Part shown: positions 34,660-49,312 of the stretch, in pieces | Layout of the letters: each line of letters begins with the position of its first letter | Position numbering within the stretch: the first letter of the stretch is position 1 | NCBI GenBank assembly: GCA_947627005.1 | Contig: CANQUJ010000001.1 | Coordinates: 62,001-126,000, forward strand | Direction: 5' to 3' | Length of the DNA: 64,000 nt | Source: an uncultured Clostridia bacterium | GTDB lineage: Bacteria > Bacillota > Clostridia > Oscillospirales > Ruminococcaceae | Translations under genes and position numbers: made by a program | Notes under the pieces: generated by a model | What the model was told of the DNA's origin: nothing | Databases searched by the model: none | Seen by the model: the letters and a program-made list of their open reading frames with translations, nothing else

Positions 34660-37600
34660 ATGAGTTTATATAAATGCGGAATTGACATAGGTTCCACCAC
34701 CGTCAAGCTTGTTTTGCTGGACGAAAGCGGGAAGACCGTCTTCGGAATGTATAAGCGCCACTGCGCCCACATTCAAGAGGCTTTGACCGAGCTTTTGCGC
34801 GAGGCGAAAAAGGCGGTCGGCGACTGCGAAATTACCGCCGGGATAACCGGCTCGGGCTCGATAAACCTCGGCAAAGCGCTTAAAATCGCCTTTGTACAAG
34901 AGGTCGCGGCGGTCGCAGCTGCAATAGAAAAGGTCGCGCCCCAAACCGACGTTGCAATAGAGCTCGGCGGAGAGGACGCAAAGATAATCTATTTTCGCGG
35001 CGGGCTCGACGAGCGGATGAACGGCGTTTGCGCCGGCGGAACCGGCTCGTTTATCGACCAGATGGCCGCGCTTTTACAGACCGACGCCGAGGGCCTCAAC
35101 AACGAGGCGAAAAATTATCGCGAGATATACCCGATCGCGGCGCGCTGCGGGGTCTTCGCGAAGACCGACATTCAGCCGCTTATCAACGAGGGCGCCACAA
35201 AGGCCGACCTTGCCGCCTCGATTTTTCAGGCGGTAGTCAACCAGACCATCTCCGGCCTTGCCTGCGGAAAGCCGATTCGCGGCTGCGTGGCCTTTTTGGG
35301 CGGGCCGCTGCACTTTTTGACCGAGCTTAAAAAGGCGTTCATAAGAACCCTTAAGCTTACCCCCGAGAATGTCGTCGACCCGCAGGACAGCCACCTTTTC
35401 GCCGCGATGGGCGCGGCTCTCGAATCGACCGAAGCCTCGCCGATAAACCTTAACGAGCTTATCGAAAGGCTCTCTAAGGGAGTAGAGATGAGCTTCGAGA
35501 TCAAAAGGCTGCCGCCGCTTTTCGCGAGCGAGGCGGAATATAAAGCTTTCTGCGCAAGGCACGACTGCGCGGTCGTCGAAAAGGGCGAGCTTTCGGAGTA
35601 TTCCGGCGACTGTTTTTTGGGCATCGACGCCGGCTCGACCACGACCAAGCTCGCGCTGATAGATTCGGACGGGCGGCTTTTGTTCTCTCATTACGCCAAC
35701 AACAAGGGCAACCCGGTCGAGGCCGCGAAATTCGCGATATACGAGCTTAAAAACCGCCTGCCCGAGGGGGCGAGAATAGTTCGCTCCTGCTCGACCGGCT
35801 ACGGCGAGGCTCTTTTAAAGTCGGCCTTTTCGCTCGACGATTCCGAGGTAGAAACTGTCGCCCACACCACCGCCGCCAAGTTCTTCGACCCGGAGGTAGA
35901 CTGCGTTTTGGATATCGGCGGGCAGGATATGAAGTGCATCAAGCTTAAAAACGGCTCGGTAGACAATGTTCTTTTAAACGAGGCCTGCTCTTCGGGCTGC
36001 GGAAGCTTTATCGAAAGCTTTGCAAATTCTTTGGGCTATTCCGCCGAAGACTTTGCAAAAGAGGCCCTTTTTGCGAAAAATCCGGTCGATTTGGGAACAA
36101 GATGCACCGTTTTTATGAATTCAAACGTAAAACAGGCGCAAAAAGAGGGCGCCCCGGTTTCCGACATTTCGGCGGGGCTGGCATATTCGGTCATCAAAAA
36201 CGCGCTCTATAAGGTCATCAAGCTTGCCGACGCCAAGGATTTGGGCAGGCATATCGTAGTTCAGGGCGGGACCTTCTATAACAAGGCGGTTCTTCGCGCA
36301 TTTGAGCGAATCGCCGACGTAAACGCCACCTGCCCCGACATTTCGGGGATTATGGGCGCATTCGGCGCGGCGCTTATCGCGAGGGAGAGATTTAAGGGGC
36401 AGCAGAGCATTATGCTCCCGCTCGATGAGATAGTCGACCTTAAGTATACCAACGCCACCGCTCGGTGCGGAAGGTGCTCGAACAACTGTATGCTCACCGT
36501 CTCGACCTTCTCGGGCGGAAGAAGGCATATAACCGGCAACCGCTGCGAGCGCGGCCTCGGCGGAACGCAGACCGGCCCGAAAGGCGAGAATCTTATTGAA
36601 TTTAAGCGCAGAAGGATATTCGATTACGAACCTCTTTCAAAAGACGACGCCGAGAGGGGAGAGATCGGGATTCCCCGCGTTCTGAACATATACGAAAACT
36701 ATCCTTTTTGGGCGACATTTTTCAAAAAGCTCAAATTCCGGGTGGTCCTTTCACCGCAGAGCGACAGAAAGCTTTACGAGCTCGGAATGGAATCTATCCC
36801 CTCGGAATCCGAATGTTACCCCGCGAAGCTTTCGCACGGCCATGTTCAGTGGCTTATAAACAGCGGGATAAAGACGATTTTCCACCCCTGCGTTTTTTAC
36901 GAGCACCAAGAGACCCCGGGAGCGCAGAACCACTATAACTGCCCGATAGTCGTATCGTACCCCGAAAACCTTAAGAACAACGTCGAGGCTATCGCCGACG
37001 GCGACGTTAAATACATTCGTCCGTTTATCGCCTTTACAGACGAAAAAACGGCCGCGGATCGCCTTATTCGGCTTTGCAAAAAGGAATGGAATATCCCCAA
37101 GAAAGAGGTCGAGGCGGCGGTTAAAGCCGCTTGGGAGGAGCAGCTTAGCGCCAAAGAGGACATCAGAAAAGAGGGCGCGCGGGTTTTAAAAGCGATGGAA
37201 GAGCGCGGCGGCAGGGGGATAGTTCTTGCCGGGCGGCCCTATCATATCGACCCGGAGATCAACCACGGCATACCCGAGCTTATCGCGAGCTGCGGTCTCG
37301 ACGTTTTCAGCGAGGACAGCCTTCCGATAGATTTCTGCCCCGAAAGGCCGCTTAGGGTAGTCGACCAATGGGTTTATCATTCGCGGCTCTATTCGGCGGC
37401 GGAATTTGTCAGAAGCCGGGACGACTTGGAGCTTGTTCAGCTTAATTCCTTCGGCTGCGGGCTCGACGCGGTCACGACCGACCAGGTTTCGGAGATTTTG
37501 GAGGGCTCGAATAAGCTCTATACCGTCCTGAAGATCGACGAGGTAAACAACCTCGGCGCGGTAAGGATCAGAATCAGAAGCCTTATCGCCGCGATGAATA

Positions 37601-38940
37601 TGAGGCGCGAGCGGGGGATAAAGGCCGAGCCCGCCCCGATAGCTTATCAAAGCACGCCCTTCACCCGCGAGATGTTCGAGGAAAAATATACCATTCTCGC
37701 CCCGCAGATGAGCCCGATTCACTTCGAGGTCCTCGAACCTGTTTTCAAGCACTACGGCTACAATATCGAGGTTCTTACCAACGACAACCGCAGCGCGATC
37801 GACACCGGGCTTAAATACGTCAACAACGACGCCTGCTTCCCCTCGATAACCGCGGTGGGGCAGGTTATGGAGGCCGTTTTGTCCGGCAGATACGACGTAA
37901 ACCGCCTCGCGGTCATAATGACCCAGACGGGCGGCTGCTGCCGCGCCTCGAACTACGTCGGGTTTATACGCCGCGCGCTCGATAAAGCGGGAATGTCGCA
38001 GATCCCGGTAATATCGCTAAACGCCAACGGAATGGAGAAGTCCGAGGGATTTAAGATGACCCCGAAGCTTCTTATCGCCGCCGGAAAGGGAGTAGTCTAC
38101 GGCGACCTGTTTATGCGCTGCCTTTATCGGACGAGGCCGTATGAAAAGCTTAAAGGCTCGGCCGACGCTTTACATAAAAAGTGGCTGAAAATTTGCACAG
38201 ACGAGCTTACCGGCGTTAAATCGGGGTATAACTACAAAAAAATTTGCAGGGGGATAGTCGAAGAATTCGACTCGCTGCCGCTTGTCGAGGGGCTTAAAAA
38301 GCCGCGCGTCGGCGTAGTCGGCGAAATTCTCGTAAAATATATGCCCCTTGCGAACAACCGCCTCGTCGACCTTTTGGAGAGCGAGGGGGCCGAGGCGGTG
38401 GTCCCGGACCTTATGGACTTTATGAACTATTCGCTTTACAACAGCGAATATAAGCACGAATTTTTGGGAACGAGCCTTAGATCCGCGCTGTTCGCGAGAA
38501 TAGGCATAGCCGCGATAGCCGGGCTTAGAAGGCCGGCCGTAAAAGCCCTTGAAAAGAGCGAAAGATTCGAGGCGCCGATGCCGATAAAAAAGGTCGCGGG
38601 GCTTGCAAAACAGTTTCTCTCGATAGGAAATCAATACGGCGAGGGCTGGTTCCTGACCGGCGAGATGGCCGAGCTTTTAGAGAGCGGCGTGCCGAATATA
38701 GTTTGTATCCAGCCGTTCGCCTGTTTGCCGAACCACGTCGTCGGCAAGGGAATGATAAAGCACCTCAAAAAGGTCTATCCCTTCGCGAATATCGCCGCCG
38801 TCGACTATGACCCCGGCGCCTCCGAGGTAAACCAGCTTAACCGAATCAAGCTGATGCTTTCAAGCGCGAAAAAGGCGCTCTCCGCAGAAAAGGAGAACGA
38901 GTCAGAAAACAGAAAACAGAGGGCAGAAATCAGAGGTTAA
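34660..38940 (+). CDS. Double BcrAD/BadFG-type activase fused to CoA-dehydratase-like domain
   Basis: The ATG at 34660 follows GGAAGGAAT. The 1426-residue protein has two sugar-kinase/Hsp70-fold ATPase modules, starting GIDIGSTTVKL (residue 3) and GIDAGSTTTKL (about 323). Each has the second signature: AGGTGSFIDQM and ACSSGCGSFIES, the latter with cysteines suited to a bridging iron-sulfur cluster. A DUF2229-like region follows with CGRCSNNC, then a dehydratase-like segment. Related short activases use ATP to drive low-potential electrons into 2-hydroxyacyl-CoA dehydratases. The substrate of the large fused form is not established. The last 14 or so residues, ending RAEIRG, are encoded by a dispersed repeat and look unlike the conserved domains. 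Confidence 0.9.
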   Translation: MSLYKCGIDIGSTTVKLVLLDESGKTVFGMYKRHCAHIQEALTELLREAKKAVGDCEITAGITGSGSINLGKALKIAFVQEVAAVAAAIEKVAPQTDVAIELGGEDAKIIYFRGGLDERMNGVCAGGTGSFIDQMAALLQTDAEGLNNEAKNYREIYPIAARCGVFAKTDIQPLINEGATKADLAASIFQAVVNQTISGLACGKPIRGCVAFLGGPLHFLTELKKAFIRTLKLTPENVVDPQDSHLFAAMGAALESTEASPINLNELIERLSKGVEMSFEIKRLPPLFASEAEYKAFCARHDCAVVEKGELSEYSGDCFLGIDAGSTTTKLALIDSDGRLLFSHYANNKGNPVEAAKFAIYELKNRLPEGARIVRSCSTGYGEALLKSAFSLDDSEVETVAHTTAAKFFDPEVDCVLDIGGQDMKCIKLKNGSVDNVLLNEACSSGCGSFIESFANSLGYSAEDFAKEALFAKNPVDLGTRCTVFMNSNVKQAQKEGAPVSDISAGLAYSVIKNALYKVIKLADAKDLGRHIVVQGGTFYNKAVLRAFERIADVNATCPDISGIMGAFGAALIARERFKGQQSIMLPLDEIVDLKYTNATARCGRCSNNCMLTVSTFSGGRRHITGNRCERGLGGTQTGPKGENLIEFKRRRIFDYEPLSKDDAERGEIGIPRVLNIYENYPFWATFFKKLKFRVVLSPQSDRKLYELGMESIPSESECYPAKLSHGHVQWLINSGIKTIFHPCVFYEHQETPGAQNHYNCPIVVSYPENLKNNVEAIADGDVKYIRPFIAFTDEKTAADRLIRLCKKEWNIPKKEVEAAVKAAWEEQLSAKEDIRKEGARVLKAMEERGGRGIVLAGRPYHIDPEINHGIPELIASCGLDVFSEDSLPIDFCPERPLRVVDQWVYHSRLYSAAEFVRSRDDLELVQLNSFGCGLDAVTTDQVSEILEGSNKLYTVLKIDEVNNLGAVRIRIRSLIAAMNMRRERGIKAEPAPIAYQSTPFTREMFEEKYTILAPQMSPIHFEVLEPVFKHYGYNIEVLTNDNRSAIDTGLKYVNNDACFPSITAVGQVMEAVLSGRYDVNRLAVIMTQTGGCCRASNYVGFIRRALDKAGMSQIPVISLNANGMEKSEGFKMTPKLLIAAGKGVVYGDLFMRCLYRTRPYEKLKGSADALHKKWLKICTDELTGVKSGYNYKKICRGIVEEFDSLPLVEGLKKPRVGVVGEILVKYMPLANNRLVDLLESEGAEAVVPDLMDFMNYSLYNSEYKHEFLGTSLRSALFARIGIAAIAGLRRPAVKALEKSERFEAPMPIKKVAGLAKQFLSIGNQYGEGWFLTGEMAELLESGVPNIVCIQPFACLPNHVVGKGMIKHLKKVYPFANIAAVDYDPGASEVNQLNRIKLMLSSAKKALSAEKENESENRKQRAEIRG

Positions 38941-39018
38941 GAGGATAAAAAGTGTGAAATCGCACAAATTTCCGAAAACAATTTCTGTTCGCTGACAATC
39001 CGATATCTGACAATCTGA
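38901..39018. repeat. Dispersed repeat, copy A
   Basis: The right-hand 63 bp (38956-39018) match 48688-48750 at 55 of 63 positions, including a perfect 26-bp core at 38956-38981. The left part is CAGA-rich and carries a perfect 14-bp match (38924-38937 with 48650-48663). This copy encodes the final residues and stop of the activase-like gene and runs up to the terminator before argS. Confidence 0.8.
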
Positions 39019-39047
39019 AAAAAGCAGCCCTTCGGGCTGCTTTTTTT
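39018..39047. terminator. Bidirectional terminator between activase-like gene and argS
   Basis: A GCAGCCC stem (39024-39030) pairs with 39034-39040 around a TTC loop, with A6 on the left and T7 on the right. It fits the convergent genes on both sides. Confidence 0.9.
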
Positions 39048-40887: not shown

Positions 40888-41433
40888 AAAGTTTTCGGTC
40901 AAGCCTTTTCCAAAAGGCTTGCAGGGGTCGAGGGGGCAGCGCCCCTCGGCGCAGCCCGCAGGCTGCGAAAGCCCCAAACGAAGGCGCCCTGCAAGGGGTG
41001 AATTTCAAAAACAGTCCAGCGGACTGTTTTTGGAAGAGGGGACGCTCTGAAAGAGAGAGCGTCCCCTTTTGATTCGCGGCTGCGAGAGCAGTCGCGCACC
41101 TAAACGTCGGGCTTTCGCCTCTTTAATCCGCAGCTCTGACAAGAGCTGCGAGCCTAATATTTTTCGCTCTGCGAAAAATCGGGGAGACCCCCGACGAGGG
41201 TAAGCGGCGCCTCGAATTTGGGGAAACCCCCGGCGAGGGTAAGCGACGCCTCGAATTTGGGGGAACCCCCGGCGAGGGTTCCCCCACGCGAAAACTGTCC
41301 GCCGGACAGATTTTCGCTCCCCCTCCTGCGCTTTTTTTAGTCAAGGGTATTTCGCGCTCTGCGGAGCGCGACCAAAGGCTTCTCGCCTTTGGAATCTCGC
41401 AAGCCTTTTGAAAAAGGCTTGAGCGAAAACTTT
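40888..41433. mobile_element. Hairpin-packed element with 35-bp terminal inverted repeats (MITE-like)
   Basis: The left end 40888-40922 matches the reverse complement of 41399-41433 at 33 of 35 positions. Each end holds its own 9-bp hairpin (AAGCCTTTT and its complement), so part of the match could come from that palindrome, but the outer 13 bp also match. Inside are nine more stems, for example 40930-40947, 40951-40966, 41007-41031 (11-bp stem), 41038-41066 (11-bp stem plus T4), 41130-41149, 41159-41179, 41288-41317, 41353-41370 and 41372-41392. No credible gene lies within. No target duplication is visible. It fits a non-autonomous element or a structured non-coding array; similar GGGGCAGCGCCCC-type hairpins recur in clostridial genomes as far as I recall. 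Confidence 0.65.
41181..41290. repeat. 40-bp tandem repeat, about 2.5 copies
   Basis: Units run 41181-41220 (40 bp), 41221-41259 (39 bp) and a partial third from 41260. Shared parts include ACCCCCGGCGAGGGTAAGCG and CCTCGAATTTG. It lies inside the inverted-repeat element. Confidence 0.8.
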
Positions 41434-41550
41434 TAGTTTGGCGCGGCGGAGTTCGGCGCTGTTTTTCGGTCCGAAAAAACCTCAAAAACTATCGCCGGAG
41501 TACGGACAAACGGACTCGAAAGGGGGTTCCGGAAAGAATTTTTAAAAAAG

Positions 41551-41637: not shown

Positions 41638-42117
41638 ATGGAAAGAGAAATTACGGAAGAGAAAAAAACTGCCGAGCTTTTTGCGGCTAACCTGTTTTCG
41701 CTCGGCAACCCCGAGGAGGCCGCTTTAAGAATCGGGGCGAGGCCGGAAGAGGCGATTTTTCTCGGCTGCGGGTTGATGAAAAACCCCGAGGTCAGAAGAA
41801 TTTTGAAAAGGCTCGGAAAATGCCGCTCTTCGGAAATTGAAGCTTCGGCGGGACTTAGGCGGCTGGCCTTCGGAAGAATCAACGACGCGCTCGAGCTTTT
41901 GAAAGACGATCAGAGCGGCGTCTCGGCGGAAAGGCTCGATCTGTTCAACGTCGCCGAGATCAAAAAGGTCAAGGGCGGGGGAGTCGAGATCAAATTCTTC
42001 GACCGGCTCGAGGCGCTTGAACGGCTTGCGGAAATAGAAAGCAGGGCGAGCGAAACCTCGGCGGCGGACAGCTTCTTTAACGCCCTCGGCCGAGGAGATG
42101 GGAAGCGTTCGGAATGA
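41638..42117 (+). CDS. Phage-type terminase small subunit
   Basis: The ATG at 41638 has AAGGGAG 6 bp upstream. The 159-residue protein has an N-terminal helical DNA-binding-like part (AANLFSLGNPEEAALRIGA), and a C-terminal segment EIKKVKGGGVEIKFFDRLEALERLAEI of which the KVKGGGVEIKFFDRLEAL pattern is typical of Terminase_2-type small subunits. Small terminases recognise packaging sites and load the large subunit. It overlaps the large terminase by 4 bp (ATGA). There is no operator-binding regulator or integrase upstream. Confidence 0.8.
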   Translation: MEREITEEKKTAELFAANLFSLGNPEEAALRIGARPEEAIFLGCGLMKNPEVRRILKRLGKCRSSEIEASAGLRRLAFGRINDALELLKDDQSGVSAERLDLFNVAEIKKVKGGGVEIKFFDRLEALERLAEIESRASETSAADSFFNALGRGDGKRSE

Positions 42118-43370
42118 GCGGGATTAGAATCGAGATCTTTTCGGAAAAGCAGAAAAGGGTTTTGAACTGGTGGCTTGACGAAAAGAACCGCGACAACCTT
42201 GCGATAATCTGCGACGGCGCAGTCAGAAGCGGGAAGACCCTTTCGATGGGGATATCCTTTGTCTTGTGGGCGACGGCGAACTTTTGCGAGACGGATTTCG
42301 CAATATGCGGAAAGACGATAACCTCGGCGAGGAGAAACCTTGCCGACGGACTTGCGGCGTTTTTGTCGCGGGGAGGGTTCGAGGTTTGCTTCAAACAGTC
42401 GCAGAATATGTTCACGGTTTGCCACAGGGGAAGAAAAAACCGCTTCTTTTTGTTCGGCGGGAAGGACGAGGGCTCGGCGGCACTTATTCAGGGAATGACG
42501 CTGGGCGGGGTCTTGTTCGACGAGGTCGCGCTTATGCCGAGGTCTTTCGTCGAGCAGGCGATCGCGAGATGTTCGCTTGAAAAATCGAAGCTGTGGTTCA
42601 ACTGCAACCCGGACAACCCCTCACACTGGTTTTACAGGGAATGGATAAAAAAGGCGGAGGAAAAGCGCGCGCTTTACGTTCACTTTACGATGCGCGACAA
42701 CCCCTCTCTGACCGAAGAAGTCAGACAGCGCTACGAAAGGCTTTACAGCGGCGCTTTTTACCGCAGATTCGTCCTCGGGCAGTGGGTCTCGTTCAGCGGG
42801 ACGGTTTACCCTTTCTTCGATTTGCAGAAAAACGTCGTCGAAAACCCGCCGGAATGTTCGAGATTCGCCGTCAGCTGCGACTATGGGACCGTCAACCCGT
42901 CGTCATTCGGGCTTTGGGGAGAAGCGGACGGAATCTGGTATCGGATATCGGAATATTATTACAACTCGAAGACCGACGGCGGAATGAGGACCGACGAGGA
43001 GCATTACAGGGCGCTTGAAGAGCTTTGCGGCGGAAGAAGGATAGAGGCGGTAATAGTCGACCCTTCTGCGGCGAGCTTTATCGAATGTATCAGGCGGCAC
43101 AGAAAATACTCTGTCGTTAAGGCCGACAACGACGTTATGAACGGAATCAGAAGAGTCGGCGACGCTTTGAAGAGCGGCAGGATAGTCATCTGTTCGCGCT
43201 GCAAAGACTGTATCCGGGAGTTCGGGCAGTACAGGTGGGACGAAAAGAGCGGGAAGGACGGAGTCGTTAAAGAAAACGACCACGCGATGGACGACCTTAG
43301 ATATTTCGTCAACAGGTATTTAAAAAGCGGCGGCGGCGGGGAATGGTTCTTCGCCTCGGTTGAAAGATAG
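42114..43370 (+). CDS. terL: Phage terminase large subunit, PBSX-like
   Basis: The 418-residue packaging motor has an intact ATPase (Walker A GAVRSGKT at 35-42, Walker B VLFDE at 133-137) and an intact RNase H-like nuclease with the acidic residues D256 (SCDYGT), D316 (VDPSA) and D393-D394 (HAMDDLRY). Family members translocate DNA into preformed heads and cut concatemers. Nothing suggests decay: no frameshift or premature stop and all catalytic residues are present. A 111-bp gap without a convincing gene separates it from the portal gene. Confidence 0.93.
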   Translation: MSGIRIEIFSEKQKRVLNWWLDEKNRDNLAIICDGAVRSGKTLSMGISFVLWATANFCETDFAICGKTITSARRNLADGLAAFLSRGGFEVCFKQSQNMFTVCHRGRKNRFFLFGGKDEGSAALIQGMTLGGVLFDEVALMPRSFVEQAIARCSLEKSKLWFNCNPDNPSHWFYREWIKKAEEKRALYVHFTMRDNPSLTEEVRQRYERLYSGAFYRRFVLGQWVSFSGTVYPFFDLQKNVVENPPECSRFAVSCDYGTVNPSSFGLWGEADGIWYRISEYYYNSKTDGGMRTDEEHYRALEELCGGRRIEAVIVDPSAASFIECIRRHRKYSVVKADNDVMNGIRRVGDALKSGRIVICSRCKDCIREFGQYRWDEKSGKDGVVKENDHAMDDLRYFVNRYLKSGGGGEWFFASVER

Positions 43371-43481
43371 CGCGAAAGCGCGGGCGGGAGGCGGGGTTTT
43401 ATATAATCGCGCCGCAGATTCGACGGCCGCGGCAAAACGAAACTGCGGGGCAAAAAATTTATCTGAAACGGAAGTGAAAAT

Positions 43482-44666
43482 TTGGCGTTATTTTCAAAGA
43501 AAAGGGCGGAAACCGAGAGGTATTTCGCCGCGCAAACCGATTCGAGGGCGGAGAGCGGGTTTTTTAAGATCAGCCCGAGGAGCGCCCTCTGCGAAAAAGA
43601 GCTTTACGCCGACCTTAGAGAAAAGGTGCCGATAATCGACGCCTGCATAGGAAAGATAATAAGGCTTACGGGCGGGTTTAGGGCGATAGCGGACGACCCG
43701 GAGCTTCAGGGCGCTTTGGACGATTTTGTCGGGAGCGTCAGAGTAGGGGCCTCGGGGATAAGCCTTCACACCTTTTTGGACTGCTATCTCGATTCGCTTC
43801 TTACATACGGCAGCGCCCTTGCGGAGATGATATTCGACCGCGAGAGGGGAAAGCTTTCGGGCGTATACGTCGCACCGATGAGAAGGATCGAGATCAGAGA
43901 GGGAAAGGACCCGCTTTCGAGGCGGTATTTGGTCGGCGGAAAGCAGATCAGGGCCGGAAGGCCGGAAAATCTTATATTCACCGCCCTTGCGCCGACTGCG
44001 GAATCGCCCTTCGGAGTGTCGGTTTTAAAGGGGCTGCCGGCGATTTCGGCGATTCTTTTAAGAATCTACGACTGCATAGGGCAGAACTTCGACAGAGTCG
44101 GGAACGTTAGGTACGCGGTTACTTATAAACCCGCGGAGGACAGCGGCGACAGGGCTTTTGCGGCCGAAAGGGCCAAGCAGATCGCGAAAGAGTGGTCGAG
44201 CGGAATGGCGGCGATGAAAAACGGCGACGTAAGGGATTTTGTCGCGGTCGGGGACGTTTCGATCAAGGCGATCGGGGCGGACAACCAGATATTGGACACC
44301 GAAGTTCCGGTCAGGCAGCTTTTGGAGCAGCTTATTTCAAAGCTCGGGATACCGCCGTTTTTGCTCGGGCTTAACTGGAGCACCTCGGAGAGGATGTCTG
44401 CGCAGCAGACCGACATTCTGACCAGCGAGCTTGAATATTACAGGCGGCTTTTAGAGCCCGCGCTGAAAGAGATCTGCGGGGCGTTTTTAAGGCTTGAGGG
44501 CGGCGACGGCGGCCTTAGGATCGAATGGGAGAACATAAATCTTCAGGACGAATCGGAGCTTGCCCTTGCAAGACTGAGAAGGGCGCAGGCGAGGCAGATA
44601 GAAATTTTAAACCAAGAAAGAGAGGAGAAGGACAATGCCCGAATCGGCGATGGAGAAAATCAATAA
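43482..44666 (+). CDS. Phage portal protein
   Basis: A TTG start at 43482 follows GGAAGTG and gives 394 residues of the HK97/SPP1-like portal type. Recognisable parts are VPIIDACIGKIIRLTGGF near 50-67, ENLIFTALAPTAESPFGVS (about 161-179), and the C-terminal helix region with LGIPPFLLGLNWSTSERMSA. Portals form the dodecameric gate through which DNA enters the capsid. The end overlaps the protease gene by 32 bp, as is usual in phage head operons. The protein is shorter than many portals but within the family range. Confidence 0.88.
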   Translation: MALFSKKRAETERYFAAQTDSRAESGFFKISPRSALCEKELYADLREKVPIIDACIGKIIRLTGGFRAIADDPELQGALDDFVGSVRVGASGISLHTFLDCYLDSLLTYGSALAEMIFDRERGKLSGVYVAPMRRIEIREGKDPLSRRYLVGGKQIRAGRPENLIFTALAPTAESPFGVSVLKGLPAISAILLRIYDCIGQNFDRVGNVRYAVTYKPAEDSGDRAFAAERAKQIAKEWSSGMAAMKNGDVRDFVAVGDVSIKAIGADNQILDTEVPVRQLLEQLISKLGIPPFLLGLNWSTSERMSAQQTDILTSELEYYRRLLEPALKEICGAFLRLEGGDGGLRIEWENINLQDESELALARLRRAQARQIEILNQEREEKDNARIGDGENQ

Positions 44667-45477
44667 ATTTACCCGCCGCGAGCTTAAAGAGGACGAGGTT
44701 TACAGATTTTCGGTTATTTTATGCGACAACGAGATAGACCGCGACGGCGAGAAATTTACGAAGGAATCGCTTGAAAAGCTTTCTGAGCTTTATATCGGCA
44801 AGACGGGGATCTGGAGCCACGACCCGAAAGGGGAGAACCAGACCGCGAGAATATACGACGCGAGGGTGATCAGCGACCCGACGAGAAAAACCGCCGACGG
44901 CGAGGAATACAGATATCTTAAGGCCGAGGCTTATATGGTCAGGACCGAATCGAACGCCGATCTTATCAAAGAGATAGACGGCGGGATCAAAAAAGAGGTT
45001 TCGGTCGGGTGTTCGGTATCGAGGCAGATATGCTCGATCTGCGGGGCGGACCGCCGAAAAGGCGGGTGTATGCACCGAAAAGGGGCGACCTATTCGGGGA
45101 GAAAATGCTTCGACAAGCTTATCGACCCGACCGACGCCTATGAATGGAGCTTTGTGGCGGTCCCGGCGCAGCCCGCGGCGGGGGTCACGAAGAGATATTC
45201 GGAGGAAATTTCGGAAAAGGGCCCGGCGGCGAACGACATCGCGGAGGAACTTTGCGAAGACCTTAAAAAGGACATTTTGAGGCTTTCGTATTTGAGCGGA
45301 GACGGAATCCCGGCGGAGCTTACGAAGGCCGCCATCGAGAGAATGGAGCCCTTTGAGCTTTTAAAGCTTAAGCGGGCGCTGTATAAGTCGGCGGTTTCAT
45401 ATGAGAGAGGCGAGCTTGAAAAGGCGCTCGCCGGAAACGGCAGAGACGCGGAAGCAAATTCGAGTTTTCGCGTTTGA
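44635..45477 (+). CDS. Prohead-protease-like protein with zinc-binding cluster
   Basis: The ATG at 44635 has AGGAGAAGG upstream. Residues 1-180 resemble a caudoviral prohead protease: H62 in GIWSHDP and S123 in KKEVSVGCS sit where the S78-type His-Ser pair is expected. An unusual Cys/His cluster follows (C133, C136, C145, H147, plus C158), likely a zinc knuckle inserted after the catalytic strand. The C-terminal 90 residues are charged and helical and may be a scaffold. Position between portal and capsid fits maturation protease. The exact family is inferred from motif spacing and gene order. Confidence 0.72.
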   Translation: MPESAMEKINKFTRRELKEDEVYRFSVILCDNEIDRDGEKFTKESLEKLSELYIGKTGIWSHDPKGENQTARIYDARVISDPTRKTADGEEYRYLKAEAYMVRTESNADLIKEIDGGIKKEVSVGCSVSRQICSICGADRRKGGCMHRKGATYSGRKCFDKLIDPTDAYEWSFVAVPAQPAAGVTKRYSEEISEKGPAANDIAEELCEDLKKDILRLSYLSGDGIPAELTKAAIERMEPFELLKLKRALYKSAVSYERGELEKALAGNGRDAEANSSFRV

Positions 45478-45515
45478 ATAAAAAATTTTTTAAAAAAGAA
45501 AGGAAAAAAACAACT

Positions 45516-46499
45516 ATGTACGACAACATCATTCTTGAAAAAGGACTTTACAACATTTGCGGCAAGACCTTTACCGAGGCCTTGAGAGAGCTTGACGCCG
45601 ACGAAAACTACGCCGGCACCGAGCTTGAGGGGCTCGACCCTTTTGAGCGCCAGCTTAAGCGCTTCGACATAAAGGTAAGCGGCGCCGACTCGGACAGAGT
45701 CGAGAAATTCTTCAGCACCACCCAGTCTGCGATACTCTTCCCCGAGTTCGTCCGCAGGTGCATCAAGGCGGGAATGGACCGCGCTTCGGTTCTTCCGCAC
45801 ATTGTGGCCGCGACGACCTATACCGACGGCGCGGACTATCGCGGGATATCGGTTACGGACAGCGATTCTTTGCTTCCCGTCGCGACGGTGGAGGCCGGAA
45901 AGGAATTCCCGAAGACGACCGTCGGCAGCGCCGAGAGCACCGTATCTGTCGCAAAATACGGCAGACAGATTCAGGCGGTATACGAGGTCATCAGAAAGCA
46001 GAGGCTCGACCTGTTCGGGGTCATTCTTAAGGCGGTAGGCGCGCAGGTTTCGGAGAACATCAACAAGGCCGCAGCGGCGGTTTTGATGAACGGAGTTTCG
46101 CCGACCGAGACCGCGGCGAACGCGATCTCCTATTCCGACCTCGCTTCATTCTGGGGCTCGATGACCGACAGAAGCATGACCGCTATGCTCGTCGCGCCCG
46201 ACCTTATGGCCGATATTCTGGCGCTTGAAGAGATGAAAAACTGCGGCGGAGACATCGGCAGCGGCGCGGTCGACACGCCCTTCGGCGTTAAGCTCGTCAA
46301 ATGCGCCGGGCTTGACGCGGGCACCGCGATAGGAGTAGACTCGGGCAGCGCGCTTGAAGCTGTTCTCGGGACCGACGTGGTAGTCGACAGCGACAAGCTT
46401 ATTTCGGCGCAGATCGACTGCATCACCTTCAGCGTGAACATAGGATTTTCCAAGATCTACCCCTCTGCGGTAAAGGTCTTGAAGCTTAAGGCCGAATAA
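45516..46499 (+). CDS. Major capsid protein
   Basis: The ATG at 45516 is preferred over an in-frame TTG at 45474; AGAAAGGA lies 11 bp upstream. The 327-residue protein has the order expected of HK97-fold capsid proteins: an N-terminal arm, an E-loop-like region near 85-130, and a C-terminal segment DCITFSVNIGFSKIYPSAVKVLKL (recognisable in its middle, SVNIGFSKIYPSAVKV). It would assemble the shell. It directly follows the protease gene, and a hairpin closes it off from the connector gene downstream, as is usual where capsid is needed in excess. Confidence 0.85.
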   Translation: MYDNIILEKGLYNICGKTFTEALRELDADENYAGTELEGLDPFERQLKRFDIKVSGADSDRVEKFFSTTQSAILFPEFVRRCIKAGMDRASVLPHIVAATTYTDGADYRGISVTDSDSLLPVATVEAGKEFPKTTVGSAESTVSVAKYGRQIQAVYEVIRKQRLDLFGVILKAVGAQVSENINKAAAAVLMNGVSPTETAANAISYSDLASFWGSMTDRSMTAMLVAPDLMADILALEEMKNCGGDIGSGAVDTPFGVKLVKCAGLDAGTAIGVDSGSALEAVLGTDVVVDSDKLISAQIDCITFSVNIGFSKIYPSAVKVLKLKAE

Positions 46500-46519
46500 G
46501 AGCGGCTTTTTGAAAAAAT

Positions 46520-46546
46520 CGCCCGCAGGGGAGGACCTTGCGGGCG
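46520..46546 (+). terminator. Hairpin after the capsid gene (possible attenuator or mRNA stabiliser)
   Basis: CGCCCGCA at 46520-46527 pairs perfectly with 46539-46546 around an 11-base loop. There is no T-run, so partial termination or 3'-end protection of the capsid message is more likely than full termination. Confidence 0.5.
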
Positions 46547-46575
46547 GGAAATTTATCTTTGAAAGGAAGAAGAGA

Positions 46576-46956
46576 ATGGACAGACTTGACTTAGAGGCGG
46601 TTTTTAAGGGGTTTGCGGCCCTTGCGAAGCTTACCGACGAGGAGGCCGAGGCGTATCGGCCGACGGTTAAATCGGCGAAGGCATATTTCGAGAGGCTTAT
46701 ACTTAGGGATTTCGAGCCGGAGGGCGAAAAGGACCTTTGCGAATACGCCTGCGCCTGCAAGGCGTTTTTCGACTACACCGTTTTTTGCGCGGCTTCGATC
46801 AAAAGCTTTTCTTCGCAGACCGGCGGGATATATACGAGGGTTTTGGGGAGCGAGACGGTCAAAAACGCCGAGCGGCTTATGAGAAATTCCTTTGCGGCGC
46901 TTCCGCCCGGGCTTATCAGAGACGACGGGTTTGTTTTTGAAGGAGCGGAGGGATAG
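46576..46956 (+). CDS. Putative head-tail connector protein
   Basis: The ATG at 46576 follows AAAGGAAGAAG; a longer frame from 46510 would read through the hairpin and is rejected. The 126-residue protein is mostly helical with several cysteines (CEYACACKAFFDY), and resembles small connector/adaptor proteins in position and size rather than by a strong motif. It sits directly after the capsid gene, where gp6-like adaptors are encoded in HK97-type phages. Confidence 0.6.
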   Translation: MDRLDLEAVFKGFAALAKLTDEEAEAYRPTVKSAKAYFERLILRDFEPEGEKDLCEYACACKAFFDYTVFCAASIKSFSSQTGGIYTRVLGSETVKNAERLMRNSFAALPPGLIRDDGFVFEGAEG

Positions 46957-46958
46957 AG

Positions 46959-47705
46959 ATGTTTGAAGCGCAGCTTGGGCTTATAAATTCGGCGCTTGAG
47001 GGGATATTCGACAGAGTTTTGAATATCTTCGAGGAAATCAATATGCAGGAGCACCGAAACGAGCTTATCTGCTTTACCGGAGTCGACGGCTATAGATTAG
47101 GAGAAACGGAGGCCGGGGGCGAAGGGTCGATAAGGCGGGCGGAGGCAGTGTTTGTCATTAAAGCGCTCGGAAAAAGGGCGATGAGCGCGGCGGAGCTTTG
47201 CGAGATATTCGACGAAAAGGCCGCGCCCGCAGCAAGGGCGGCGATACCCACGGCGAAGGAGCTTAAAAGGCTGCCCTGCGTTTTTCTTAAAGATTCGGGG
47301 AGATACTGCGTTTCGGCGGAGATTTCGGCGGAAATATCTGAGAGCGCCGCGGAAATACCGGAAAATATCGGGTTTTCGGTCGGCGGGGAGTTTTACCCCT
47401 GTATGAAGAGCTTTGAGATAAAGAGAGAGGTCAAAACCGGCGAGACCCCGACGATAGGAAGCGGGATAAGGACGAGAGTGGTCGGAACGAGGCCGCTTAG
47501 AATTAAGGCCTTCGGGAAGACAGCCGGCGGCGCGGGCCCGGCGGTTTATACGAAGCTTTCTTTGAATCTTGGGGCGGCGGCGCAGACGGTTACGGTCGGC
47601 GGATTGAGCTTTGGGCTTATGGTTATGACCGGGCTTGAGCTTAGCGCCGAAAGCGACGGCAGCGGGAAGATCGAGGCGGAGTTTACGGAGGTGAACGAGA
47701 GTTGA
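46959..47705 (+). CDS. Phage-like structural protein of unknown role
   Basis: The 248-residue gene is not recognised. It starts 2 bp after the connector gene with GGAGGG-like sequence upstream. The N-terminal half is helical and charged; the C-terminal half is beta-rich (GFSVGGEFYPCMKSFEI, then GSGIRTRVVGTRPLRIKAFGK), like small tail or closure proteins with a beta-barrel. It overlaps the next gene by 4 bp, so they are co-translated. A tail-terminator or completion role is possible from position only. Confidence 0.55.
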   Translation: MFEAQLGLINSALEGIFDRVLNIFEEINMQEHRNELICFTGVDGYRLGETEAGGEGSIRRAEAVFVIKALGKRAMSAAELCEIFDEKAAPAARAAIPTAKELKRLPCVFLKDSGRYCVSAEISAEISESAAEIPENIGFSVGGEFYPCMKSFEIKREVKTGETPTIGSGIRTRVVGTRPLRIKAFGKTAGGAGPAVYTKLSLNLGAAAQTVTVGGLSFGLMVMTGLELSAESDGSGKIEAEFTEVNES

Positions 47706-48640
47706 GCCGAAGCGTTGTTTTAACGGTAAGGTTTTTGAGAACTCTCGGGACCCTTGCGAACTGCTGCATAAACTTCAGATTTGAAAAAGAGCGCTACACG
47801 CCCTATACGAAGCTTTCGGGGGAGTGGTATTGCCCGAAGAACTTCAACATCGCGGAGGTGGTCGCGGTTATGCTGAATATTGACGGCGTTATGATCCACT
47901 ACGGCTACCCGACCGGCATCGAGATTATAAAGCGGGACGGAAGAACAGTCCTTAAGGTTTCGAGCGTGGGATATACCGCGGCGTTGGCCTCTAATCAATG
48001 CAAGGACGGGCTTTTGACGGACGTCGACCTTAGCGGGCTTGCGGCGGCCGGAACGGCGATACCGATTGTCGCCTATCAGCAGAACACGCCGACGGTAAAC
48101 TACGTCAACTATTACGACGGAACCAGCTCGTGGGACGCGATAGTTTGTTATTCGCTTCGCGCGAGCGGAAAATACCCCTATATTTACGGCTACAACACCG
48201 TCAGGATCGAGCCGCACGACAACCCGAAGGTTTATTCGATCTCGGAGAGCGAGCTTGTTTCAAGGGGGAGCGGGACGGATTATTCCAAGATGATATCATA
48301 TATCAGCGAAAAGGACGTAGACGGTACGCCGGCGGCCTTTACCGCGACCAACGGCCTTGCGGCGCAGAGAACGATAGTCCGCGCGAGGGAAATCAACTTC
48401 GACCGCGAGTGGATAATGGATTCGGAAGCGGGGCTTAGGCACAGGATAAACTATTCGATGAGGGCGATAAACTACGATTCCTTCGGATTTTGCGGCTATG
48501 CGGGCCTCGACCTTTTGGACAGATTCAGGCTTGAGGGCGCGGGCTTTGAGGGAGAAGTCGACAGAGTTGTCGTCACCGCCTCGGCGGAAAAGGGATTTGT
48601 GACGACGGTAGAATGTTATCACGACGGATACTGCGCCTAA
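47702..48640 (+). CDS. Putative baseplate-hub-like phage protein
   Basis: A TTG start at 47702 overlaps the previous stop. The 312-residue protein looks like one domain family: YTPYTKLSGEWYCPKNFN, then IHYGYPTGIEIIKRDGR, SSWDAIVCYSLRASGKYPYI and VRIEPHDNPKVYSISESELV. The pattern of a short membrane-free beta barrel followed by a W-D-I-C-L helix and a V-x-x-D-x-x-x-I strand recalls Mu gp44 / late-control hub proteins. It is the last phage-like gene; the next sequence is the dispersed repeat. No tape-measure or tail-tube gene accompanies it, which is odd for a hub. Confidence 0.5.
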   Translation: MSRSVVLTVRFLRTLGTLANCCINFRFEKERYTPYTKLSGEWYCPKNFNIAEVVAVMLNIDGVMIHYGYPTGIEIIKRDGRTVLKVSSVGYTAALASNQCKDGLLTDVDLSGLAAAGTAIPIVAYQQNTPTVNYVNYYDGTSSWDAIVCYSLRASGKYPYIYGYNTVRIEPHDNPKVYSISESELVSRGSGTDYSKMISYISEKDVDGTPAAFTATNGLAAQRTIVRAREINFDREWIMDSEAGLRHRINYSMRAINYDSFGFCGYAGLDLLDRFRLEGAGFEGEVDRVVVTASAEKGFVTTVECYHDGYCA

Positions 48641-48641
48641 A

Positions 48642-48750
48642 GCAGAAGACAGAAATCAGAGGTCGGAGGTCAGAAGATAGAAAGGCCGAAATCGCACAAA
48701 TTTCCGAAAACAACTTCCGATTTCCGACTATCCGATATCTGCCAATCTGA
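48642..48750. repeat. Dispersed repeat, copy B
   Basis: Matches copy A at 38901-39018: the 63 bp at 48688-48750 are 55/63 identical, with the same 18-bp gap between the perfect 26-bp core (48688-48713) and a 19-bp block with one mismatch (48732-48750). It starts two bases after the hub-like stop and encodes the final residues (about RLADIG) of the convergent ABC ATPase. Confidence 0.8.
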
Positions 48751-49312
48751 ACAGCGCGCAGCCGAGGGCGGCGGCCTCTTCTTTTGAGTGGGTCACGAGG
48801 ATAAGGGTTTTGTCTTTTGTGCGAAGCTTTATCTCTTCGATCACCGAGGGGAGAGTCTCGGAGTCGATGCCCTTAAATGGCTCGTCCAAGATCAAGAGGT
48901 CGAAGTCGCCGACGAGGGCGCGGGCGATCGCGACCCTGCGGCGCTCCCCCCCGGAAAGAGAGGAGACCGGCTTTTTTAAAAGCTCGCCGGAAATTCCGAG
49001 CGCGGCAAGGGTATTCGGGACTATCGAGGGATCGGCGCCCTTTTTTAATACGAGGCGGCAGTTTTTGATCGCGCCGAGGGGTTCGATAAGGCGGTCTTCT
49101 TGGAAAACCTCGGAGATTTTAAGCCCTTCGGGGCGGGAGATTTCGCCGGAATCGGGCTTTATAAGGCCGGTTATGAGGTTTAGAAGAGTGGTTTTTCCGG
49201 CGCCGGAGCGGCCGGTTATCGCGAGCTTCGCGCAGTCCCCGATATCGAGGGAAAAATCTTTTAAAACGGTTTGGCCGCCGAAGGATTTTGAGACGTTTTT
49301 AAGAGAGATCAT
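48728..49312 (-). CDS. ABC transporter ATPase, nitrate/sulfonate/taurine importer type
   Basis: The 194-residue ATPase has Walker A GRSGAGKTT, Q-loop region, signature LSGGERRRVAIARAL, Walker B LLILDEP and the switch His in LVTHSKEEA. It is shorter than the usual 240-260 residues and stops soon after the switch region; the last residues come from dispersed-repeat DNA, so the C-terminal tail may have been replaced. It overlaps the permease gene by 4 bp and powers the importer encoded with it. Confidence 0.92.
   Translation of the reverse strand: MISLKNVSKSFGGQTVLKDFSLDIGDCAKLAITGRSGAGKTTLLNLITGLIKPDSGEISRPEGLKISEVFQEDRLIEPLGAIKNCRLVLKKGADPSIVPNTLAALGISGELLKKPVSSLSGGERRRVAIARALVGDFDLLILDEPFKGIDSETLPSVIEEIKLRTKDKTLILVTHSKEEAAALGCALFRLADIG

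Follow-up and report, generated by a model that had tools for sequence, protein, structure and literature searches.

A phage-head block with a predicted stub tail in an uncultured Clostridia bacterium is probably a reduced gene-transfer-agent-like locus

Introduction

What are eight intact phage-head-type genes doing between ordinary chromosome genes, with no gene for integration, repression or replication among them? This question is raised by a block at positions 41638-48640 of a 64,000-nucleotide stretch, hereafter the window, from an uncultured Clostridia bacterium of the family Ruminococcaceae (assembly GCA_947627005.1, contig CANQUJ010000001.1, positions 62,001 to 126,000 of the forward strand). 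An earlier note, made from the letters alone, had offered four readings: a domesticated capsid locus, a capsid-only satellite, one part of a gene transfer agent (GTA)-like system with its other genes elsewhere, or a trimmed prophage. Here, we conclude that the block is probably a domesticated, largely vertically inherited, reduced and short-tailed GTA-like locus, for which packaging and transfer of DNA are predicted. The first and third readings taken together fit best because half of the genus retains the block, largely along host lines and under purifying selection, and because a lysis cassette lies at a separate locus; the satellite and the trimmed prophage are disfavoured. A GTA-like locus is also preferred to a dying prophage because relatives inherit the single-copy block much like chromosome genes.

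Gene content of the block

The window was read for open reading frames (ORFs), and the block was found to span 7.0 kb and to consist of eight co-directional ORFs (g1 to g8). As the earlier note had claimed, the genes are intact and none is frameshifted, each being one open frame. Between neighbouring ORFs there is either an overlap (4 or 32 bases) or a spacing of 2-10 bases, with the exception of a 111-base gap between g2 and g3. The flanks are indeed ordinary chromosome genes, argS on one side and an ATP-binding cassette (ABC) importer on the other. Codon use, earlier judged host-like by eye, correlated with that of seven flanking genes at r = 0.88; the value for a single prophage ORF from this genome was 0.19. 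The eight genes are:

41638..42117, plus strand: g1, terminase small subunit TerS (PF03592, 1.7e-9; phrog_51, 1e-7)
42114..43370, plus strand: g2, terminase large subunit TerL of the PBSX family (TIGR01547, 4.4e-57; phrog_2, 1.1e-53)
43482..44666, plus strand: g3, portal, with a TTG start (phrog_30703, 3.3e-134; Pfam Phage_portal, 37.1 bits against a cut-off of 39.1)
44635..45477, plus strand: g4, probable prohead protease or scaffold (phrog_16951, 5.9e-100, a family without annotated function)
45474..46499, plus strand: g5, major capsid protein (PF25209, 3.4e-16; phrog_3922, 4.3e-77)
46510..46956, plus strand: g6, putative head-tail connector-like protein (no family match; role from position)
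46959..47705, plus strand: g7, tail terminator (residues ~1-130) fused in one protein with a tail-tube domain (~137-248), from its predicted structure
47702..48640, plus strand: g8, baseplate hub of the Mu gp44/T4 gp27 fold, from its predicted structure

The g1 protein aligned to positions 7-127 of the 141 in the Pfam Terminase_2 profile. The earlier statement that the terminase has all its catalytic residues was borne out in an alignment of 100 TerLs (the window, 13 of type A, 16 of type B and 70 named loci; the types are defined below): six catalytic residues were identical in all 100, and the seventh, the Walker A T, was found in 98. We take the six to be the Walker A K, the Walker B D/E and three nuclease D. 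The role of g4 is probably that of a prohead protease or scaffold, given its position and a weak match (E 0.029) to a model of a prohead protease fused to a major capsid protein. The g6 profile matched the same-place gene in Ruminococcus (hhalign probability 97.6) and the post-capsid gene of a longer clostridial block (probability 100, in an alignment that includes rows from its own genus), and its position suggests a head-tail connector.

Searches with Pfam, PHROG and TIGRFAM-type profiles gave no convincing family for g6, g7 or g8, and found no integrase, repressor, replication or tape-measure gene among the eight. To this extent the absence of phage life-cycle genes described earlier was upheld; the claimed lack of tail genes was not, given the tail-tube domain in g7 and the hub fold in g8. 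Neither a receptor-binding gene nor a regulator was identified in the block, no query having been aimed at either. PADLOC gave no match for g2-g8, the seven of the eight proteins submitted, and promoter-like and terminator-like sites were close to shuffled expectation (4 vs 3.3 and 18 vs 14.4, respectively). Thus, the block encodes a head and a packaging apparatus but nothing for integrating or for replicating autonomously, which is a trait of GTAs. It does not combine integrase, regulation, replication, lysis and a full tail in one element as a prophage does, and its eight genes lack the integrase carried by a phage-inducible chromosomal island (PICI).

The two tail genes

On the predicted structures of g7 and g8, the block would encode a head and a very short (stub) tail. 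Of 80 named loci, 34 have a capsid less than 50% identical and exactly three ORFs separating g8 from the head genes. In these 34, the second ORF matched the N-terminal half of g7 and the third its C-terminal half (hhalign probability 97.7, E 2e-12, and probability 87.2, E 4e-6, respectively). The single g7 gene here therefore corresponds to a pair of genes in loci of the Ruminococcus type. In most of these 34 loci the protease-like g4 follows the capsid gene, whereas here it precedes it. The type B proteins F2 and F4 were also compared with g7 and g8 and were rejected as homologues (hhalign probability 0.5 and 7.2).

Distribution and inheritance within the genus

The genus sample comprised 31 genomes, including that of the window (G000). 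TerL was matched in all 31, and the block as in the window (type A) was found in 15 (G000, G005 and G017-G029). All eight genes were present in 14 of the 15; in the other (G028), the block is split across contig ends and g1 was not seen, while g1 was present in 14/14 type A loci read (13 fetched and the window). A conserved position in relatives had been suggested as a check, and the same ABC importer was found to adjoin the block in 10 type A genomes, in G027 with the neighbourhood inverted. The argS gene is upstream in six of the 15, and its relative orientation in G000 and G005 differs from that in the other four. A complete prophage at this site in relatives had been named as refuting evidence; none was seen in the stretches read from the 14 other carriers, some of which reach contig edges.

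The ratio of nonsynonymous to synonymous substitution (dN/dS) was calculated by the Nei-Gojobori method for 14 type A genomes (the split G028 was excluded); synonymous sites were near saturation in most pairs. In the two closest pairs per gene, all within G024, G026 and G029, dN/dS was ~0.05 for TerL and 0.03 for the capsid, the two genes for which the earlier note had proposed this measurement. The corresponding values were 0.08-0.09 for the portal, 0.19-0.25 for g7, 0.11-0.16 for g8 and 0.06 for the host marker MetG, and those of g1-g6 together ranged over ~0.03-0.2. Furthermore, the distances of all eight genes correlated with those of MetG (r 0.39-0.73; permutation p 0.018 for g3 and <=0.0015 for the others), and over both block types (29 genomes) TerL and MetG distances correlated at r = 0.93. 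The subclades (G024, G026, G029), (G017, G023), (G022, G027) and (G018, G021) were common to the block tree and to a midpoint-rooted, 30-row MetG tree, several forks of which are not strongly supported. These results collectively demonstrate that the block is old, is under purifying selection and has been inherited largely along host lines. Vertical inheritance with purifying selection is a further GTA trait, here with exceptions in the placement of G000 and G005 and in the five type A genomes without the importer.

The spread of the block over 15 of the 31 genomes, with one importer beside it in 10, the g1-g6 ratios, well below 1 in the closest pairs, and the compact form seen in 14 of 20 relatives read (below) argue against a remnant prophage that was trimmed to its head module and has yet to decay. 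In addition, the integrated prophages of the genus look different: most of their ORFs are 95-100% identical between G023 and G026, and they carry an integrase-like ORF (names given by eye). We consider such a remnant improbable, although every part of the block is of tailed-phage origin, longer relatives have baseplate genes and one a sheath-like gene, and a small number of capsid and hub matches from other genomes carry a stop flag. A PICI-like, capsid-forming satellite that uses the tails of a helper would also encode a head and packaging machinery but no full tail; however, integrase and regulator are both missing from the eight genes, the site is common to 10 of the 15 genomes, distances track the host marker, and terminator, tube and hub folds are encoded by the block itself, which leaves the satellite with a very slim chance.

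Occurrence in the wider family

In 295 genomes sampled over the order, the hub (g8) profile matched 12, eight from the own family and four, weakly, from another family. Within the family, it matched 102 of 297 genomes, from 46 of 126 genera (64 at E 1e-60 or better and 38 between 5e-22 and 2e-5), and a single match is listed for 100 of these 102. The hub was found in all ten genomes of the sister genus, one of the matches being partial, and in four genomes of the family genus g20. The block also occurs in cultured Ruminococcus flavefaciens strains (FD-1, ATCC 19208 and Y1).

Twenty relatives were chosen from the 102 hub genomes, and 14 of them had TerS, TerL, portal, g4, capsid and hub in compact form with the hub last. 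Four (G342, G538, G376 and G390) had a longer form with LysM, three of them with baseplate genes, and two were incomplete (no TerL match in G408; the hub alone in G510). The longer form of G538 includes a weak tail-sheath domain, below the Pfam cut-off (PF17482, 2.6e-4). The longer block of a Clostridia metagenome-assembled genome (MAG; locus L139) encodes Baseplate_J, Mu Gp48-like and hub proteins, with no integrase recognised by eye. Because these longer relatives with baseplate or sheath genes exist, the compact block resembles a shortened version of a contractile-baseplate type element, the direction of change being our inference. Two genomes of only 0.7-0.9 Mb, G390 and G408 (loci L426 and L427), retain hub, LysM and baseplate-J genes, and G390 also TerS and TerL, in what is again a longer version of the block.

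A second block type

The other 16 of the 31 genus genomes carry a different block (type B), of which only TerL matches the proteins of the window (48-53% identity). This block has an SPP1-type portal, a different capsid and a GH25 lysozyme, and takes the role of the type A block (loci L234-L249). The GH25 gene follows the capsid block in 14 of the 16; in G002 and G010 the stretch read stops near TerL at a contig edge. G003 has no block between argS and the ABC importer; two main ORFs, of 157 and 342 aa, occupy that interval. Type B may be a second GTA-like element, because its TerL distances track those of MetG at r = 0.99 (15 genomes).

A separate lysis cassette

A holin-lysozyme cassette was found on another contig (C14) of the window genome:

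C14, 41490-42844, minus strand: holin-like ORF, LLH holin (PF09682, 1.8e-9) and GH25 lysozyme (PF01183, 6.4e-28)

No head or tail gene was recognised in the 16-kb stretch around it. Its holin-like ORF is 42-55% identical to the same-place ORF of type B clusters, and a related holin is present in 14 of the 16 type B genomes. G024 has this cassette too, between the same neighbours. In G025 and G018, other holin-GH25 cassettes stand alone, their holins being identified by eye. A division of the system over several loci, lysis included, is a GTA trait, and the stand-alone cassettes of these four genomes may be linked in function to the block. With the three queries used, the other 11 type A genomes gave no cassette or one within a prophage. 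The LLH-type holins of G022, G023, G026 and G027 sit in apparent integrated prophages and were rejected as stand-alone cassettes, and weaker GH25 matches (~24-38%) in most genus genomes were taken as unrelated to the system.

Comparison with known systems

Among published work on GTAs in Ruminococcus, Clostridia, Bacillota and Oscillospirales, only PMC12946183 (Nat Commun 2026) was directly relevant, and nothing relevant was found on the capsid, terminase or prophages of R. flavefaciens; for both, coverage was thin for subscription papers and did not extend to bioRxiv. According to the sections of PMC12946183 available, few GTAs are known outside Alphaproteobacteria, short host-DNA packaging is common in gut Ruminococcaceae, and Ruminococcus callidus packages host-DNA fragments of 4.6 kb. 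The same sections name a gene cluster only for Faecalibacterium (FpGTA), with Onthomonas, Gemmiger and F. prausnitzii as the MAGs searched. Operon I of FpGTA has ten ORFs in 10.5 kb; operon II, with baseplate, fibre, receptor-binding, holin and endolysin genes, is ~125 kb away in APC918/95b. The capsids are ~40 nm and hold ~9 kb of DNA, and the particles, without identifiable tails, are thought to be podovirus-like (PMC12946183, in part).

In gene layout, on which this comparison is based, FpGTA is the closest known system to the block. Both have TerS, TerL, portal, head scaffolding and major capsid genes and no replication genes. Head and lysis loci are separate in both, and the order portal, one gene, capsid fits the FpGTA protein numbers RCH50851 and RCH50849, as far as the available sections of PMC12946183 go. 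The block differs in its size (eight genes, 7.0 kb) and in the fusion of terminator and tube, and we found neither a baseplate wedge nor a fibre in it.

Other known systems are less similar in layout. RcGTA of Rhodobacter capsulatus is a longer, siphovirus-like cluster with tape-measure and host-specificity genes, whereas the block has a stub tail with a Mu/T4-type hub. PBSX of Bacillus subtilis, to whose family model the TerL belongs, combines regulators and lysis genes with a complete contractile tail in a single cluster, and none of these adjoins the block. Capsid-forming PICIs, like the block, have their own capsid and packaging genes and no full tail; they differ from it in the integrase and regulator that its eight genes lack and in its position, common to 10 of the 15 genomes.

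Proposed function

In a GTA-like particle, TerS and TerL would feed host DNA by way of the portal into a small capsid of the HK97 type, which g4 perhaps matures, and g6 would dock the tail. The g7 fusion would form one ring or very few because its terminator half would cap tube growth, and a tape measure would therefore not be needed; the g8 hub would close the tip. Particles would be released by the holin-GH25 cassette on the separate contig. The cargo may be smaller than the 7-kb block, so that a particle would be unable to carry its own genes, and the likely benefit would be gene exchange with siblings.

A domesticated capsid with a role other than transfer, such as a PBSX-like killing particle or a non-injecting DNA container, is rather unlikely. 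It would suit the stub tail and the lack of a recognised receptor-binding gene (no dedicated query was made), and the available sections of PMC12946183 leave open whether FpGTA delivers its DNA. However, DNA packaging still seems to be selected, because the ATPase and nuclease residues of TerL are conserved and the portal is kept, and the hub fold is that of the part at the membrane end of delivering tails.

Several observations weigh against a vertically inherited GTA-like locus. The importer was not seen beside the block in five of the 15 type A genomes, in the stretches read, and 195 of the 297 family genomes had no hub match. Median dN/dS over pairs with dS <3 was higher than in the closest pairs (TerL lowest at 0.12, capsid 0.20, g8 0.26 and g7 highest at 0.34, with MetG at 0.10), and the highest single value among these pairs was 0.76, for g7. 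The capsid search flagged internal stops in six genomes (G019, where the stop sits at the first codon of the match, G028, G035, G043, G053 and G057), and two hub matches contain a stop (G564 and G525). G000 changes place between the trees, having different neighbours in that of the block (81/98), and the midpoint-rooted MetG tree puts G005, although of type A, on its type B side. The three queries recovered a stand-alone lysis cassette in only four of the 15 genomes (G000, G018, G024 and G025). The g1 protein fits its Pfam profile over most of its length and is not obviously of the kind described for FpGTA, whose TerS lacks an obvious DNA-binding domain. Finally, no receptor-binding gene was recognised, and particles, host-DNA packing and transfer are predictions from gene content.

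We see an even chance that the block stands for a widespread, as yet unnamed group of minimal GTAs among the gut Clostridia near Ruminococcus, with one capsid, one motor and a one-ring tail set by a terminator-tube fusion in place of a tape measure, carrying a few kb of host DNA. Such a block may account for the 4.6-kb packaging of R. callidus, for which the gene cluster is missing. It provides a defined eight- or nine-gene GTA candidate for gut Ruminococcaceae, and gene transfer by such particles is directly testable because the hub is widespread and cultured R. flavefaciens strains carry the block.

Phage and virome records

Among 50,697 phage records, none matched the hub at a threshold of E 0.01; seven matched the capsid and 900 TerL. 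Five of the seven capsid records exceeded 40% identity; these five are unannotated 'Bacteriophage sp.' records from human faeces in Mexico with related head genes. One of them, MT835508 (L387, MT835508.1), is a chromosome-like contig of 46.7 kb, and it was rejected as a phage genome because ordinary chromosomal genes (ribosomal-protein-like and rpoA-like, by eye) lie beside the head genes. From sample and country, the Mexican records may derive from the study of DNase-treated virus-like particles in PMC8361208; their accession numbers were not found in the portions of that paper available, and contamination is possible. A bacterial chromosome piece among such faecal records would be an indirect hint of host-DNA packaging. 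In 80 IMG/VR loci collected by TerL, the capsid was also found in 59 and the hub in six. Virus catalogues list such loci as phages, and many of the 80 may be true phages.

Repeats and other elements

A dispersed repeat lies in the gap between argS and terS, outside the system:

40888..41439, no strand assigned: dispersed repeat with 35-bp inverted ends

This intergenic repeat of ~550 bp resembles a miniature inverted-repeat transposable element and has 114 matching pieces genome-wide, one of them ~2 kb from the lysis cassette; being so dispersed, it was rejected as a marker of the system. A direct repeat of ~110 bp, 80% identical between its copies (38913-39019 and 48639-48751), brackets argS and the block: the first copy lies between the gene at 34660-38940 and argS, and the second directly after g8. 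Contig C30 of the window genome has a separate prophage-like region with a long ORF that resembles a tape measure (named by eye). Finally, closely similar prophages across species of the genus (L409-L412) carry integrase-like and reverse-transcriptase-like ORFs, the latter possibly, by eye, a diversity-generating retroelement.

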